Shown here: piece by piece, positions 2,272 through 44,667 of the stretch | Layout of the letters: each line of letters opens with the position of its first letter | Position numbering within the stretch: position 1 is the stretch's first letter | Assembly: GCA_025054935.1 (NCBI GenBank) | Contig: JANWZD010000003.1 | Span: 186,001 to 250,000, forward strand | DNA: 64,000 bases | Reading direction: 5' to 3' | From: Dehalococcoidia bacterium | GTDB taxonomy: Bacteria > Chloroflexota > Dehalococcoidia > SpSt-223 | Made by a program: the position numbers and the translations under genes | Notes under the pieces: generated by a model | What the model was told of the DNA's origin: nothing | What the model saw: the letters and a program-made list of their open reading frames with translations, nothing else | Databases searched by the model: none

Positions 2272-4134
<1,863 letters not shown>

Positions 4135-4187
4135 GCTGCTCTTTCCCGACGCCGGCCTCGGCCGACCAGGCCAGCAAGGAGAGTATA

Positions 4188-4748
4188 TCAAAGGGGTTCC
4201 GGCATTCCGCCATCGTCGCTCACAAGGCGCAACTCGGCGACGAACGGGAGATTGCGGTAGTTCTCGGCGTAGTCGAGCCCGTAGCCGACCACAAACCGGT
4301 TCGGGATGAGAAAACCAGTGTAGTCGAGCGCGACGTCCGCGCGGCGCGGCGCCTGTTTGTCGAGGAGCGCGCACACCCGCAGGCTCGCCGGGCTCCGTGC
4401 TTGAAGATAGTCAAGAATGTAGCGCAGGGTGAGCCCGCTATCGACGATATCTTCAACGACGAGGACGTCTTTCCCTTCGATGCTCTCGTCAAGATCTTTG
4501 AGAATGCGAACGATCCCGCTCGTCTCAGTGCTCGGGCCGTAGCTGCTGATCGCCATGAAGTCCATGGTCACCGGCAGCTCGATCGCGCGGGCAAGGTCAA
4601 CGAGGAACATCGCCGCGCCTTTCAGGACCCCAACAAGAACCACCTCGCGCCCGGCATAGTCACGGGTGATCGCTGCGCCCAGTTCGCGGACGCGGCGCTG
4701 GATAGCCTCCTCAGTTAGGATCGTCTCGCCCAGCTCTGCTCTGGCCAT
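4188..4748 (-). CDS. hpt: Hypoxanthine phosphoribosyltransferase
   Basis: 186 aa. Transfers phosphoribose from PRPP to hypoxanthine (and usually guanine) in purine salvage. The PRPP-binding loop VVEDIVDSGLTLRYIL (about 97-112) is intact, and the substrate-loop region VGVLKGAAMFLVDLARAI and the DFMAISSYG segment are typical. ATG at 4748 lies 38 bases inside tilS, so the two are probably co-translated. The order tilS, hpt, ftsH matches many bacteria. Confidence 0.96.
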   Translation of the reverse strand: MARAELGETILTEEAIQRRVRELGAAITRDYAGREVVLVGVLKGAAMFLVDLARAIELPVTMDFMAISSYGPSTETSGIVRILKDLDESIEGKDVLVVEDIVDSGLTLRYILDYLQARSPASLRVCALLDKQAPRRADVALDYTGFLIPNRFVVGYGLDYAENYRNLPFVAELRLVSDDGGMPEPL

Positions 4749-15143: not shown

Positions 15144-15806
15144 TCAGCCCATCCAGCGGCCGCCGTTGATATCGAGGATCGCTCCCGTGATCGAGGCGGC
15201 AGCCGGCGACAGCAGAAAGAGGATAGCCGCCGCGATCTCCTCCGGGGGAATGAGCCGCGGGATCGGGGTGCGCTCGGTGAAGAACCGCTTCTCCTCTTCG
15301 GTGAGCGGAGCGAGCATCGGCGTGTCGACCAGCCCCGGCGCGACGCAGTTGACGCGAATGCCGTCTGCCGCCAGGTCGGTCGCCAAGTGCCGCGTCACAT
15401 TGATCACGCCTCCTTTTGCTGCCGCGTAGGCAATCCCTGTCAGTCGGTTGCCGCCATTGCGTCCCGCCGTTGAGCTGGTCAGCACGATCGCGCCCCCGCC
15501 GGCAGCGCGCATGCTCGGGATGACGGCGCGGCAGGTGACAAACACCGACGTCAGATTGTCGTCGAGAATGCGGTACCAATCCGCGAGGGTGTGCTCTTCG
15601 ATGCTCCCTTTATGCACCGTGCCGGCGACATGGACAAGCGTCGTGATCGGGGGCTTGTCGCGCAGAAACGCCGCAACTTGGTCAGGGTCGGCGGCGTTCA
15701 CGCCGCTTGCGCGGTCGAGCCCAACGACTACATGACCGTGTTCGCGGAGCAGCGCCGCCGTTGCCCGTCCTATGCCGCCATCAGCCCCAACGAGGAGCGT
15801 CGCCAT
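15144..15806 (-). CDS. Short-chain dehydrogenase/reductase
   Basis: 220 aa, slightly short for a classical SDR. The nucleotide-binding glycine motif is VGADGGIGRATAALL (7-21), in place of the usual TGxxxGIG. The catalytic residues are the Ser of LTSSTAGR and the AYAAAKGG Tyr-Lys pair, and the PG motif VAPGLVDTPM is present. It should reduce or oxidise a carbonyl or alcohol with NAD(P)H; the substrate is unknown. CGGAGGA precedes the ATG. It is divergent from gnd across 171 bases. Confidence 0.88.
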   Translation of the reverse strand: MATLLVGADGGIGRATAALLREHGHVVVGLDRASGVNAADPDQVAAFLRDKPPITTLVHVAGTVHKGSIEEHTLADWYRILDDNLTSVFVTCRAVIPSMRAAGGGAIVLTSSTAGRNGGNRLTGIAYAAAKGGVINVTRHLATDLAADGIRVNCVAPGLVDTPMLAPLTEEEKRFFTERTPIPRLIPPEEIAAAILFLLSPAAASITGAILDINGGRWMG

Positions 15807-15977
15807 CTTTCCTCCGGGTGTTCCCGATCGCGCCCGGACGTCACTTCTGCCGAGCGCCTGCAGTGTACCGCGCTCGCGGTGCAGGGATCTTCTCGTCTCT
15901 TCCTCTTCCCGCTACGATCGCGGAGGGGAACGAGGCAAAAGCCTAACGCCTCTGAGACGGTGAGAGAGGGCGAGTGA

Positions 15978-16997
15978 ATGCAGCTCGGGATGATCGGGTT
16001 AGGCCGCATGGGCGCGAACATGACGCGCCGGTTGCTGCGGGCAGGACACGACTGCGTCGTCTACAACCGCAGCCGCGCCCCGGTCGAAGCGCTCGTGCGC
16101 GAAGGGGCGAGAGGGAGCACCGACCTTGCAACGTTCGTCCAGCTGCTTGAGCCGCCGCGGCACATCTGGCTGATGGTGCCGGCGGCGGCGGTTGATCCGG
16201 TGATCGAGCGTCTCCTCCCGCTGCTTTCGGCCGGCGATACCATCATCGACGGGGGCAACACTCACTATCACGATGATATCCGCCGCGCTCGGCTGCTGCG
16301 GGAGCGGGGTCTCCACTACGTCGATGTGGGGACGAGCGGAGGCGTCTGGGGGCTTGAGCGGGGCTATTGCCTGATGATCGGCGGCGAGCAGGAGATTGTG
16401 CGGCGGCTGGACCCGATCTTCCGTGCGCTCGCGCCGGGCGTTGCTGCCGCGCCGCGGACGCCGGGCCGGCAGGGTGACCCGGCGCCTCCAGAATGGGGCT
16501 ACCTCCATTGCGGACCGCATGGCGCAGGCCACTTCGTCAAGATGGTCCACAACGGCATCGAGTACGGCATCATGGCCGCCTACGCCGAAGGGATGAACAT
16601 TCTGAAGAATGCCAATATCGGGACGTCCCGCCGCGCGAGCGATGCTGAGACGTCCCCCCTCCGTCAGCCGGAGCTGTATCGCTACGACTTTGATCTTCCG
16701 GCGATCGCGGAGCTGTGGCGGCGCGGCAGCGTGATCGCGTCCTGGCTGCTCGACCTGACTGCGCGCGCCCTCCATGACGACCCCGAGTTGGCCGCCTTTG
16801 TCGGCCAGGTCGCCGACTCCGGCGAGGGACGGTGGACGGTCATGGCGGCGATCGACGAGGGGGTGCCGGTTCCGGTCTTGAGCGCGGCGCTCTACGCGCG
16901 CTTCACCTCCCGCGGAGCGGACGAGTTTGCCAATAAGCTGCTCTCAGCGATGCGCTACGGCTTCGGCGGCCATGTCGAGAAGACGAGCAGCGAATGA
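15978..16997 (+). CDS. gnd: 6-phosphogluconate dehydrogenase, short type
   Basis: 339 aa. Oxidatively decarboxylates 6-phosphogluconate to ribulose 5-phosphate with NAD(P)+. It has MQLGMIGLGRMGANMTRRL with the dinucleotide fold, VDVGTSGGVWG for substrate binding, and HFVKMVHNGIEYGIMAAYAEGM with the catalytic Lys. It lacks the long C-terminal helix domain of the roughly 470-aa enzymes, so it belongs to the shorter form. A proline-rich insert (about 155-172) precedes GYLHCGP. The tal, pgi and GH15 genes follow on the same strand after a 657-base gap; zwf and pgl are absent from the window. Confidence 0.93.
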   Translation: MQLGMIGLGRMGANMTRRLLRAGHDCVVYNRSRAPVEALVREGARGSTDLATFVQLLEPPRHIWLMVPAAAVDPVIERLLPLLSAGDTIIDGGNTHYHDDIRRARLLRERGLHYVDVGTSGGVWGLERGYCLMIGGEQEIVRRLDPIFRALAPGVAAAPRTPGRQGDPAPPEWGYLHCGPHGAGHFVKMVHNGIEYGIMAAYAEGMNILKNANIGTSRRASDAETSPLRQPELYRYDFDLPAIAELWRRGSVIASWLLDLTARALHDDPELAAFVGQVADSGEGRWTVMAAIDEGVPVPVLSAALYARFTSRGADEFANKLLSAMRYGFGGHVEKTSSE

Positions 16998-40563: not shown

Positions 40564-40682
40564 TCAACGCGCGCGCTGCACGTTCTGTCCCGAGGCGCGA
40601 GCACGACTGGCGCCTGACCAGGCATAATGATCGCCGGCTGGCGACCCCAGCACGTGAGGACGAGCCACAAAGGAGTGTGCCC

Positions 40683-41768
40683 ATGGTTGTCGCAAGTGAA
40701 CGGGCCATTGACCGCATTGTCCGCCTTCTCGGCGATGAAGCCGAGTCGCTGCTCTCTCACCAGTCGCGCACCATCGACCGCTCGTTGCTGCACTTGCCCG
40801 GTCCCGACTTTCTCGACACGGTGTTCCAGCCGAGCGATCGCAACAGCCAGACATTGCGCAATCTTCACGCGCTTTTCAACACCGGCCGTCTTGCCGGCAC
40901 CGGCTATGTCAGCATTCTCCCCGTTGACCAGGGGGTCGAGCATAGCGCCGGCGCGAGCTTCGCGCCGAACCCCATCTATTTCGACCCGGAGAACATCGTC
41001 AAACTGGCGATCGAAGGCGGCTGCAACGCTGTCGCCTCGACCCTCGGCGTTCTCGGCGCTGTCAGCCGGCGCTATGCCCATAAAATTCCCTTCATTGTCA
41101 AGATCAACCATAACGAGCTGCTCACCTACCCGAATAAGTACGACCAGATTCTGTTTGCGAGTGTCAAGCAGGCGTGGAATCTCGGCGCGGCAGGCATCGG
41201 CGCCACAATCTACTTCGGCAGCGAAGAGAGCAGCCGTCAGATCGTCGAAATCAGCCAGGCGTTTGCCCAAGCGCATGAGCTGGGGATGTTCACCGTGCTC
41301 TGGTGCTATCTCCGCAACAGCGCGTTCAAGGCCGATAAGGACTACCATCTCGCTGCCGACTTGACCGGTCAAGCAAACCATCTTGGCGTGACGATCGAGG
41401 CCGACCTCATCAAGCAAAAGCTGCCCGAGAACAACAACGGCTACGGCGCGCTGAGCGTCAACGGCGTGAAATACGGCCAGACGAGCAAACTGGTCTACAC
41501 CCAGCTCACCTCCGACCACCCGATTGACCTCTGCCGCTACCAAGTGGTCAACTGCTACATGGGGCGCGCGGGCTTGATCAACTCCGGGGGCGCTTCGGGC
41601 GCGAACGACCTTGCTGAAGCGGTGCGCACGGCGGTTATCAACAAGCGCGCGGGCGGCATGGGGCTGATCAGCGGGCGCAAGGCGTTCCAGAAGCCGATGA
41701 AGGAGGGGATTGAGCTGCTGCACGCGATCCAAGACGTCTATCTCTGCCCGGACGTGACGATCGCCTAA
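40683..41768 (+). CDS. fbaB: Fructose-bisphosphate aldolase, class I (FbaB/DhnA type)
   Basis: 361 aa. Cleaves fructose 1,6-bisphosphate to triose phosphates through a Schiff base and needs no metal. The core [22 protein letters not shown] and [21 protein letters not shown] are diagnostic of the FbaB/DhnA family. Later segments include [20 protein letters not shown] and [21 protein letters not shown] at 40683 lies seven bases after AGGAG; GTG at 40677 is too close to that site. No class II aldolase is seen in the window, so this may serve glycolysis and gluconeogenesis with pckA and pgi. Confidence 0.93.
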
Positions 41769-42059: not shown

Positions 42060-42157
42060 GGGTCGCCTCCTCGCTGCGCCATCATAGCGTCTTGGCGAAC
42101 TTGACGCCGTGACGAGCGCAGCGTATGGTCAGTCGCGCCAACGGAGGAACGCTCGCC

Positions 42158-43357
42158 ATGCCTGGCCCTCTTGCCGGTGTGCGCATCATCGACCTGAGCG
42201 AAGGCGTCGCCGGCCCCTTTGCCGCCAAACAGCTTGCCGACCTCGGCGCGGATGTCATCAAGGTCGAACGGCCGGGAGGCGACCCGGCACGCCGGTACGG
42301 TCCCTTTCCCGGCGACATTCCGCATCCGGAGAAGAGCGGGCTGTTTATCCATCTCAATACCAACAAGCGCTCGGTCGTGGTCGACCCCGCAACGCCGAGC
42401 GGGCGAGCGATCATCCTCCAGCTCGCTGCGCGCGCCCATGCCCTTATCGAGAGCTTTCCTCCCGGAACGCTGGCTGCGTGGGGACTAGGGTGGGACGACC
42501 TTGCCGCCGTTAATCCGCGGATCGTGCTCACCTCGGTCACCCCGTTTGGAACGGCCGGTCCAGCAGCTCATCGGCAGGCAACCGACCTGACGCTTGCCGC
42601 CCGCTCCAGCTTCCTCATCGCTGCCGGCGAGCCAGACCGGGAGCCGGTGAAATATCCCGGCCGCCAAACCGAGCTGGTTGGCGGGCTGCATGCGGCTTGG
42701 GGAACGATGGTGGCGCTCTATCATGCCGATGTCACGGGCGAGGGCCAAGTGGTCGACACCTCGATTCTCGAAGCAGCAGTGATGATCTCCGACCAGAATA
42801 TGCTGAGCGTCGCCTACTGGAACGGCGGGGGACGCGCCCGCGCCGGCCGGCGGCCGCTTCGCTTCCCGCCGATCGTGATGCCGGTCCTCGACGGCTATGT
42901 CTCGCTGCTCGTCACCGATCTGCAGTGGCCCCGCTTCTGTCGGATGGCCGGTCTTGAGGCGTATGCCCATGACCCCCAGCTCGCTACCCAGCGCGGTCGT
43001 ATCGAGCGGCTCGAAGAGCTCGAGGTCGCCTTTCTGCCCTGGTTTCTCAGCCATACCAAGCGCGAGGTGTTCGAGATCGCGCAACGGCACGGCGTCCCAA
43101 TCGCGCCATTCAATACCATCGCTGAGGTGCTCGACGACCCACAGTTCCGCGCGCGGGGATATTTCCGGAAGATGGTGCACCCCGTGCTGGGCGAGATCAC
43201 GCTCACCGGGCCGCCGGCGCTGTTGACGGAGACCCCCTGGGAGCTGCGAAGGCCGGCGCCCCTGCTCGACCAGCACGCCGAGGAGATCTTGTGCGGGGAG
43301 CTCGGGTACCGCCCGGAAGAGCTCCTTGCGCTGCGCGCCGAAGGAGCGACCGGATGA
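42158..43357 (+). CDS. Family III CoA-transferase (CaiB-like), subunit with Glu in place of catalytic Asp
   Basis: 399 aa. CaiB/BaiF-type enzymes move CoA between carboxylic acids. The N-terminal GVRIIDLSEGVAGPFAAKQLADLGADVIKVERPGG region is classical, cut here at known residues 8-41. The catalytic Asp of formyl-CoA transferase (in GDSNTG) aligns with E172 in RQTELVGGLHAAWG, so this subunit may not be catalytic or may use Glu. ATG at 42158 is supported by GGAGG ten bases upstream; an ATG at 42125 has no such site. Its stop overlaps the start of a second CoA-transferase gene (ATGA), so the two are likely co-translated and may form a heterodimer. Confidence 0.85.
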   Translation: MPGPLAGVRIIDLSEGVAGPFAAKQLADLGADVIKVERPGGDPARRYGPFPGDIPHPEKSGLFIHLNTNKRSVVVDPATPSGRAIILQLAARAHALIESFPPGTLAAWGLGWDDLAAVNPRIVLTSVTPFGTAGPAAHRQATDLTLAARSSFLIAAGEPDREPVKYPGRQTELVGGLHAAWGTMVALYHADVTGEGQVVDTSILEAAVMISDQNMLSVAYWNGGGRARAGRRPLRFPPIVMPVLDGYVSLLVTDLQWPRFCRMAGLEAYAHDPQLATQRGRIERLEELEVAFLPWFLSHTKREVFEIAQRHGVPIAPFNTIAEVLDDPQFRARGYFRKMVHPVLGEITLTGPPALLTETPWELRRPAPLLDQHAEEILCGELGYRPEELLALRAEGATG

Positions 43358-44667
43358 ATGTGCTGACTGATCTGCCGGGCGCCCTGCGCGGCATCCGCGT
43401 GCTCGACTACACGACGGCGTGGGCGGGACCGCGGCTGACGACCTATCTTGCCGAGATGGGCGCCGAGGTGATCCACGTCGAGTCGATCCAGTATCTCGAT
43501 ACGCACCGTGGCTGGAGCAAGTGGGCGTGGGGCGCCTCCGGCAACATGCCGAACAACGACCCCGGTCGTCGGCCTTGGGAACGCAACTCGCAATATAACG
43601 AGTTCAATAAAAACAAGCTCGGGATCACGCTCAACCTCGCCGACCCGGACGGGGTCGCCCTGTTCAAAGAACTGGTCAAGATCTCTGATGTCGTAGTGGA
43701 TAACTACAAAGCGGGCACCACTGCCCGCTTCGGCGTCGACTACGACACCTTGCGGAAGATCCGTCCCGACATCATCCAAGTTTCGCTTCCGGCGTTCGGC
43801 TCGACCGGCCCCTACCGCGACTACACCGCGTGGGGGAATCAGGTGATGGCGCTCTGCGGCCAGGGCCTGCTGCTGAACTACGAGGGCGAGGAAGAGCCCG
43901 AGCCGGGCGGCACCTATGCCGATCCGCTGGCCGCGATCACGGGCGCGTTCGTCGTGGTGGCGGCGCTCTTTCACCGCCGGCGCACCGGCCAAGGGCAGTA
44001 CATCGAATTGGCGCTTAGTGAGGTCAGTCCGCCGCTCCTTCCCGAGGCTTTCGCTGAGTACACCATGAACGGCCGTCAGCCCCTTCCGCGCGGCAACAGC
44101 GTCCCTGAAGCGGTGCCGTGGAACGTCTACCCCTGCCAGGGCGAGGATGCCTGGATTGCCATTTGCTGCCGCACTGATGCGGAGGCGCTGCGGCTGTTTG
44201 AGATGATGGGCCGGCGCGATTTTCTCGAGCGTTTCGCGACGATCCCCGCGCGCCTTGCCGCGCGCGCCGAGATCGACGCTGCAGTCGCCGCGTGGACGGC
44301 GCCCCAGGAGAAATATCAGCTTGCCGATCGCCTGCAGGCGGCCGGGATCCCTGCCGAGGCAGCGGCGCAGTACGCCGAAGTCCTTGTCGACCCGCAGCTG
44401 CAGGCGCGCGGCTTCTTTGTCGAACTCGATCACCCGGAATGCGGGGTCTATCCCCATCCGCTGCAGGCGGTGCGGCTCTCGAAAACGCCGCCGATCGATT
44501 ACCGCGCCGCTCCAACGTATGGTCAGCACAACGCCGAAGTCCTCGGGGGGCTGCTCGGAGTGAGCCAAGAGCGCTTGGAGGAGCTGGCGGCAAAGCAGGT
44601 GATCGGCACCGAGCCGCTCGAGGACGAGGAGCGCCGCCGCCGCGATCGCGCCTGGGGGGTCAGCTGA
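43354..44667 (+). CDS. Family III CoA-transferase (CaiB-like), subunit with catalytic Asp
   Basis: 437 aa. It starts MNVLTDLPGALRGIRVLDYT. The CoA-binding N-terminal fold is followed by the GPYRDYTAWGNQVMALCGQG segment, and the catalytic-Asp motif is YADPLAAITGAF with D190 aligning to Asp169 of formyl-CoA transferase. The TGQGQYIELALSE motif follows. The region 50-85 (SKWAWGASGNMPNNDPGR) looks like an insertion relative to short family members. Substrate acids cannot be read from sequence. It begins in the last four bases of the previous gene. A short leftward open frame ends at 44660, eight bases inside this gene. Confidence 0.85.
   Translation: MNVLTDLPGALRGIRVLDYTTAWAGPRLTTYLAEMGAEVIHVESIQYLDTHRGWSKWAWGASGNMPNNDPGRRPWERNSQYNEFNKNKLGITLNLADPDGVALFKELVKISDVVVDNYKAGTTARFGVDYDTLRKIRPDIIQVSLPAFGSTGPYRDYTAWGNQVMALCGQGLLLNYEGEEEPEPGGTYADPLAAITGAFVVVAALFHRRRTGQGQYIELALSEVSPPLLPEAFAEYTMNGRQPLPRGNSVPEAVPWNVYPCQGEDAWIAICCRTDAEALRLFEMMGRRDFLERFATIPARLAARAEIDAAVAAWTAPQEKYQLADRLQAAGIPAEAAAQYAEVLVDPQLQARGFFVELDHPECGVYPHPLQAVRLSKTPPIDYRAAPTYGQHNAEVLGGLLGVSQERLEELAAKQVIGTEPLEDEERRRRDRAWGVS

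Follow-up and report, generated by a model that had tools for sequence, protein, structure and literature searches.

A gene pair for a probable heterodimeric family III CoA-transferase with one catalytic aspartate in a Dehalococcoidia bacterium

Enzymes built from two genes or from two fused domains are known among the coenzyme A (CoA)-transferases of family III. Malate CoA-transferase is a two-gene case, and DddD, the dimethylsulfoniopropionate CoA-transferase/lyase, is a two-domain fusion with the Asp in its second domain. Benzylsuccinate CoA-transferase, BbsEF (PDB 9fn0, 9fol and 9fun), is made of two family III chains, BbsE and BbsF. In passages of PMC4437653, DddD is placed among the class III CoA-transferases and an Asp is described as essential to it, and passages of PMC9813914 describe the family III enzymes as interlocked dimers in which each active site lies at the subunit interface and the catalytic Asp proceeds through an acyl anhydride to a beta-aspartyl-CoA. 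In SAR202 Chloroflexota, CaiB/BaiF CoA-transferases occur in large numbers per genome, as stated in parts of PMC5395668. Here, we analyzed a stretch of 64,000 nucleotides from a Dehalococcoidia bacterium (the window; assembly GCA_025054935.1, contig JANWZD010000003.1, positions 186,001 to 250,000), in which two adjacent genes, designated A and B, encode family III homologues. The results suggest that the two products form an obligate heterodimer with one working site, located in B, and with A as a non-catalytic partner, a reading to which we give a probability of about 0.8.

As shown in Table 1, A and B overlap by the letters ATGA, in agreement with the original prediction of two overlapping family III CoA-transferases, and PF02515 is the sole Pfam domain in both products (338 bits for A and 311 bits for B, with a cut-off of 23.3). 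A purine-rich stretch lies 5' of both start codons (GGAGGA before 42158 and GGAG before 43354) and the two genes are presumably coupled in translation via their overlap. Neither A nor B reached the NCBIfam equivalog cut-offs for SUGCT, Frc, succinyl-CoA:mesaconate, mesaconyl-CoA or carnitine CoA-transferases, so that no named substrate is provided by the family models.

The same prediction had placed E172 of A and D190 of B at the position of the catalytic Asp169 of formyl-CoA transferase. This assignment was borne out by alignments with solved Asp-bearing enzymes; the letters of the Oxalobacter formigenes enzyme (Frc) were not among these, and 'Asp169' in Frc is named in the titles of PDB entries. 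The catalytic Asp of family III is present in B (D190) and absent from A (E172), and no other Asp was found in A within ten residues of E172. Judged from its sequence, A is classed as a homologous subunit and not as an enzyme by itself. At the column of Ser99 of A and Asn117 of B, Asn is found in 59 of the 64 BbsF-like (B-type) domains of the tree described below, in 12 of 16 other relatives and in 20 of 69 BbsE-like (A-type) domains. By motif, this column would correspond to Asn100 of Mct, which holds the CoA arm according to passages of PMC9813914. With thresholds that were the analyst's choice, A was found to have lost nine columns that B-type proteins share with single-gene enzymes, including those of the catalytic Asp and of this Asn, and B to have lost seven that A-type proteins share with single-gene enzymes, including a K-x-E-x-P-G stretch near A residues 35-41. 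These losses are complementary, suggesting that both chains have been specialised, as obligate partners would be.

Table 1. Position in the window of the two genes, of their overlap and of the residues compared.
Feature	Position	Strand	Description
Gene A	42158..43357	+	399 aa, family III CoA-transferase, BbsE-like (A-type) subunit, without catalytic Asp
Gene B	43354..44667	+	437 aa, family III CoA-transferase, BbsF-like (B-type) subunit, catalytic Asp kept
ATGA overlap	43354..43357	+	TGA stop of A shares letters with ATG start of B
Ser99 of A, codon AGC	42452..42454	+	Asn predominates at this column in both B-type domains and single-gene enzymes
Glu172 of A, codon GAG	42671..42673	+	aligned with the catalytic Asp of solved enzymes
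Asn117 of B, codon AAC	43702..43704	+	same column as Ser99 of A
Asp190 of B, codon GAT	43921..43923	+	expected nucleophile, on the invariant Asp column

Comparison with the solved structures separated the two proteins in the same way. The best PDB match of A was chain A of BbsEF (9fn0_A, 207 bits, and 162 for chain B) and the best match of B was chain B of the same entry (205 bits, and 75 for chain A). With a profile of twelve B-type proteins, BbsF came first at 381 bits and the next match followed at 302. The BbsE residue aligned with Glu172 of A is a Tyr. D178 of BbsF, counted along the alignment row, aligns with D190 of B, and the title of entry 9fol mentions a 'D178-CoA adduct'. On the basis of these titles and sequences, benzylsuccinate CoA-transferase appears to work from its F-type chain, which is consistent with the asymmetric active sites that had been invoked for such two-gene enzymes when the pair was first noticed. 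For both A and B, the structural model could be matched to solved family III chains along most of the protein; the model of B is of moderate quality (predicted local distance difference test, pLDDT, 74.3) and has BbsF as its closest solved chain.

To place the pair within its family, 20 loci were taken from a genome contig collection and further relatives were sought with an A-type profile. In the window's class, 88 of the 119 genomes gave a match at E <= 1e-110, and the loci of the best matches alone were used; in the phylum, where scoring was restricted to the top candidates of each genome, 9 of 201 genomes gave a match at E <= 1e-115. After removal of duplicates and of partial domains shorter than 330 aa, the tree contained 149 domains, including four solved references. 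Two clades were obtained. The A-type clade (69 rows) contains BbsE and the first halves of all six fusion genes of the window's genome (see below), with support of 100/99 in the careful site-homogeneous tree and 99 in the quick mixture-model tree; the B-type clade (64 rows) contains BbsF and all six second halves (100/100 and 100, respectively). The Asp of the catalytic column is present in all 64 B-type domains and in the 16 other relatives, whereas it is kept in 14 of the 69 A-type domains. The remaining A-type residues are E (16), Q (15), L (6), Y (5), H (4), S (3), A (2) and W, M, C and F (one each), and at least 27 residue changes have occurred at this column in the A-type clade and none in the B-type clade. 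The subclade containing A of the window has no Asp in any of its 29 domains. The history of the Asp in the A-type clade requires 8 changes if the ancestor lacked it, 10 if the ancestor had it and 11 if loss only is allowed.

The two types are also found side by side. An adjacent B-type domain on the same strand accompanies 60 of 62 split A-type genes, a rate that describes this clade and not the whole Pfam family, the relatives having been found by similarity to paired A-type proteins. A precedes B in 55 of these pairs and follows it in 5, and the B-type partner carries the Asp in 59, the last one being cut by the end of the locus before the column. One of the two unpaired genes lies at a contig edge (L075) and the other is in the window's genome (L056). 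A separate observation concerns locus L027 (1-10656), where nine consecutive CaiB-type genes on one strand alternate between B-type and A-type, all with Asp; part of this array is also present in genome G053, contig C57.

The same pattern recurs within the window's genome, where 24 matches to PF02515 were read as 23 domains, two matches being one domain. These are distributed over 11 single-domain genes and six two-domain fusions of 773-836 aa (L058, L059, L060, L061, L062 and L063), none of which reached an NCBIfam cut-off. In all six fusions the Asp is missing from the first half, which has Tyr in four cases and Glu in two, and is present in the second. A second split pair, on contig C1 at 352-355 kb, has Ala in its first gene and Asp in its second. 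At L056, an A-type gene with Ser at the column (15343-16599, minus strand) has no adjacent B, and a B-type gene with Asp (2955-4430, plus strand) has no adjacent A; these two genes, on opposite strands and separated by about 11 kb, are possibly partners in trans. In total, the Asp is present in none of the nine A-type domains of this genome, in all nine B-type domains and in the five other singles.

Alternatively, A and B could each be homodimeric, B being a normal CoA-transferase and A having another function or decaying. Mct and other solved single-gene relatives are indeed interlocked homodimers in the passages of PMC9813914 that concern them, and the partnerless A-type gene at L056 is what such an arrangement would allow. 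Nevertheless, the close pairing and the natural fusions disfavour it, as do the two reciprocal clades matching BbsE and BbsF, the complementary column losses, and the strong conservation of A within its genus, where the orthologues in the two other genomes seen are 90% and 84% identical. We consider separate homodimers highly improbable.

Additional loci, which had played no part in finding the A/B rule, were obtained by a tblastn search of plasmids with one of the fusions: 1197 records matched, and eight of 30 listed were taken, from Betaproteobacteria, Alphaproteobacteria, Deinococcota and Actinomycetota, their domains being placed by tree. All six A-type domains lack the Asp (T, Y, F, S, Y and S), and it is present in all seven B-type domains and in both others. 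Among these B-type domains, that of Rhodococcus (L116) is without an A-type partner in the stretch taken. Recurring across the family and in these loci fetched later, the asymmetry between A and B is not attributable to chance. Two of the plasmid loci have neighbours of their own: the A/B pair on plasmid 2 of Aromatoleum aromaticum EbN1 (L113, 221-4236) comes after UbiX/UbiD-type genes, which may hint at an aromatic acid as substrate, and on a Variovorax plasmid (L111, 4486-10325) a fused A-B gene is clustered with a split A/B pair and with hydratase and thiolase genes.

The heterodimer with a single site in B, as originally proposed for this pair, is supported by the clades of BbsE and BbsF, by the Asp of 64/64 B-type domains versus 14/69 A-type domains, by the pairing of 60 of 62 genes and by the six fusions. 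Several observations weigh against it. The profile of twelve A-type proteins scored SUGCT (304 bits) above BbsE (288 bits), and the model of A, of moderate quality (pLDDT 75.8, predicted template modelling score 0.63), is about equally near to the single-gene enzyme SUGCT and to BbsE. Because 14 A-type domains keep their Asp, it is not proven that the A site is dead in every pair. Moreover, Glu is acidic and is the commonest A-type residue at the column, and Glu172 is kept in the three genomes of the genus that were seen.

These last points would favour a heterodimer with two working sites, in which Glu172 of A would be a second nucleophile, perhaps for another substrate. D or E occupies the column in 30 of the 69 A-type domains, and Glu is the nucleophile of the family I CoA-transferases in the part of PMC9813914 that mentions them. 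However, the nearest A-type relatives of A have Q, L or S, so that its Glu seems to have arisen among non-acidic residues, and the CoA-binding Asn is lost in A as well (S99). The equivalent D169E formyl-CoA transferase is reportedly inactive. This variant was made and its structure solved (PDB 1vgr). Given the range of residues (Q, L, S, Y, H and others) through which this column has drifted in A-type relatives, a retained nucleophilic role for Glu172 was rated low and two working sites are very unlikely. As for the A-type domains with Asp, no link between this residue and the CoA-binding Asn was found among the 69 domains, Asn being present in 5 of the 14 Asp-bearing domains and in 15 of the other 55, with too few independent pairs for a statistical test. 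As the Asp-bearing chains keep the Asn no more often, the presence of the Asp does not prove that they have a second site; this argues against, without disproving, their being simply full second sites.

According to the preferred reading of a heterodimer with one site, we infer the following sequence of events. A and B would be co-translated and their products would assemble as an obligate heterodimer, as in BbsEF. Asp190 of B would attack the donor acyl-CoA to give an acyl anhydride and then a beta-aspartyl-CoA thioester, from which the CoA would be passed to the acceptor carboxylic acid, catalysis taking place at B only. A would keep the fold, interlock with B and complete the active-site cavity of the latter, and it probably helps to choose or to gate the acceptor; its own site would be dead, with Glu in place of Asp at 172 and Ser in place of the CoA-binding Asn at 99.

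Concerning the substrate, benzylsuccinate was considered and is unlikely, since no glycyl-radical benzylsuccinate synthase was found in the window's genome: this genome (96.8% complete) gave no match to the glycyl-radical enzyme families PF01228 and PF02901. In view of the lack of such an enzyme of the fumarate-addition pathway, the pair was not classed as a benzylsuccinate CoA-transferase, and its substrate is probably another acid. An aldolase gene of the DeoC/LacD family (40677-41768) lies directly upstream of A and B, and the three genomes of the genus that were seen share the order aldolase-A-B. This gene indicates no pathway or substrate for the pair, and the aldolase is not known to be linked to CoA transfer. 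The promoter-like match at 42101-42129 is a single consensus match, of which 0.3 were expected, and was not taken as evidence. It could also be supposed that the heterodimer couples CoA transfer to a second reaction, of a lyase or an isomerase, as in DddD, and that A shapes this second reaction. Lyase functions have been proposed for some SAR202 paralogues in parts of PMC5395668; on the other hand, nothing observed here speaks directly for such a coupling, and the neighbours, including the aldolase, point to no pathway. This explanation is unlikely.

If the heterodimer with a single site in B is extended to the whole A-type clade, the obligate A-B CoA-transferases could form a superfamily descended from one ancient duplication, A having been non-catalytic since the common ancestor and having then diversified as a subunit choosing or gating the acceptor. 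We put this forward tentatively, as a possible history. A might be non-catalytic even where its Asp is kept, and 'two-Asp' pairs may use one site, because the 14 Asp-bearing domains have other A-type losses in common (Asn in 5 of 14). If so, A would have been freed from the chemistry, which would explain the many pairs per genome, the tandem arrays and the fusions in Dehalococcoidia-type genomes, and mixing of A and B chains would be allowed. Family III genes are annotated en masse as though one gene were one enzyme; should the A/B rule hold, roughly half of the members of the paired expansions would be non-catalytic partners, to be annotated and expressed with their neighbours. A testable question is thereby raised, namely what the dead subunit of an interlocked dimer contributes to substrate choice.

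Compared with the known systems, A and B have the Pfam family and the fold of the single-gene formyl-CoA transferase, SUGCT and Mct, and B has the catalytic Asp of these enzymes; unlike them, the window's enzyme would be encoded by two genes, of which A lacks the Asp. It differs from DddD in being a pair of genes. The SAR202 CaiB/BaiF paralogues belong to the same family as A and B, and the passages of PMC5395668 concerned do not mention A/B pairing or a lost Asp. In listings of the literature, from which most subscription journals were absent, neither the BbsEF structure nor an A/B rule for the whole family was found as the subject of a paper. The nearest system is BbsEF, which also consists of two family III chains and has the Asp in its F-type chain only; the adjacent genes of the window fall one into the BbsE clade and one into the BbsF clade. 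In contrast, the window's proteins are about a third identical to those of BbsEF, and A has Glu where BbsE has Tyr. BbsEF is already an example of such an enzyme, and of added interest here is that the one-sided loss of the Asp extends over a large family whose members are present in many copies per genome.
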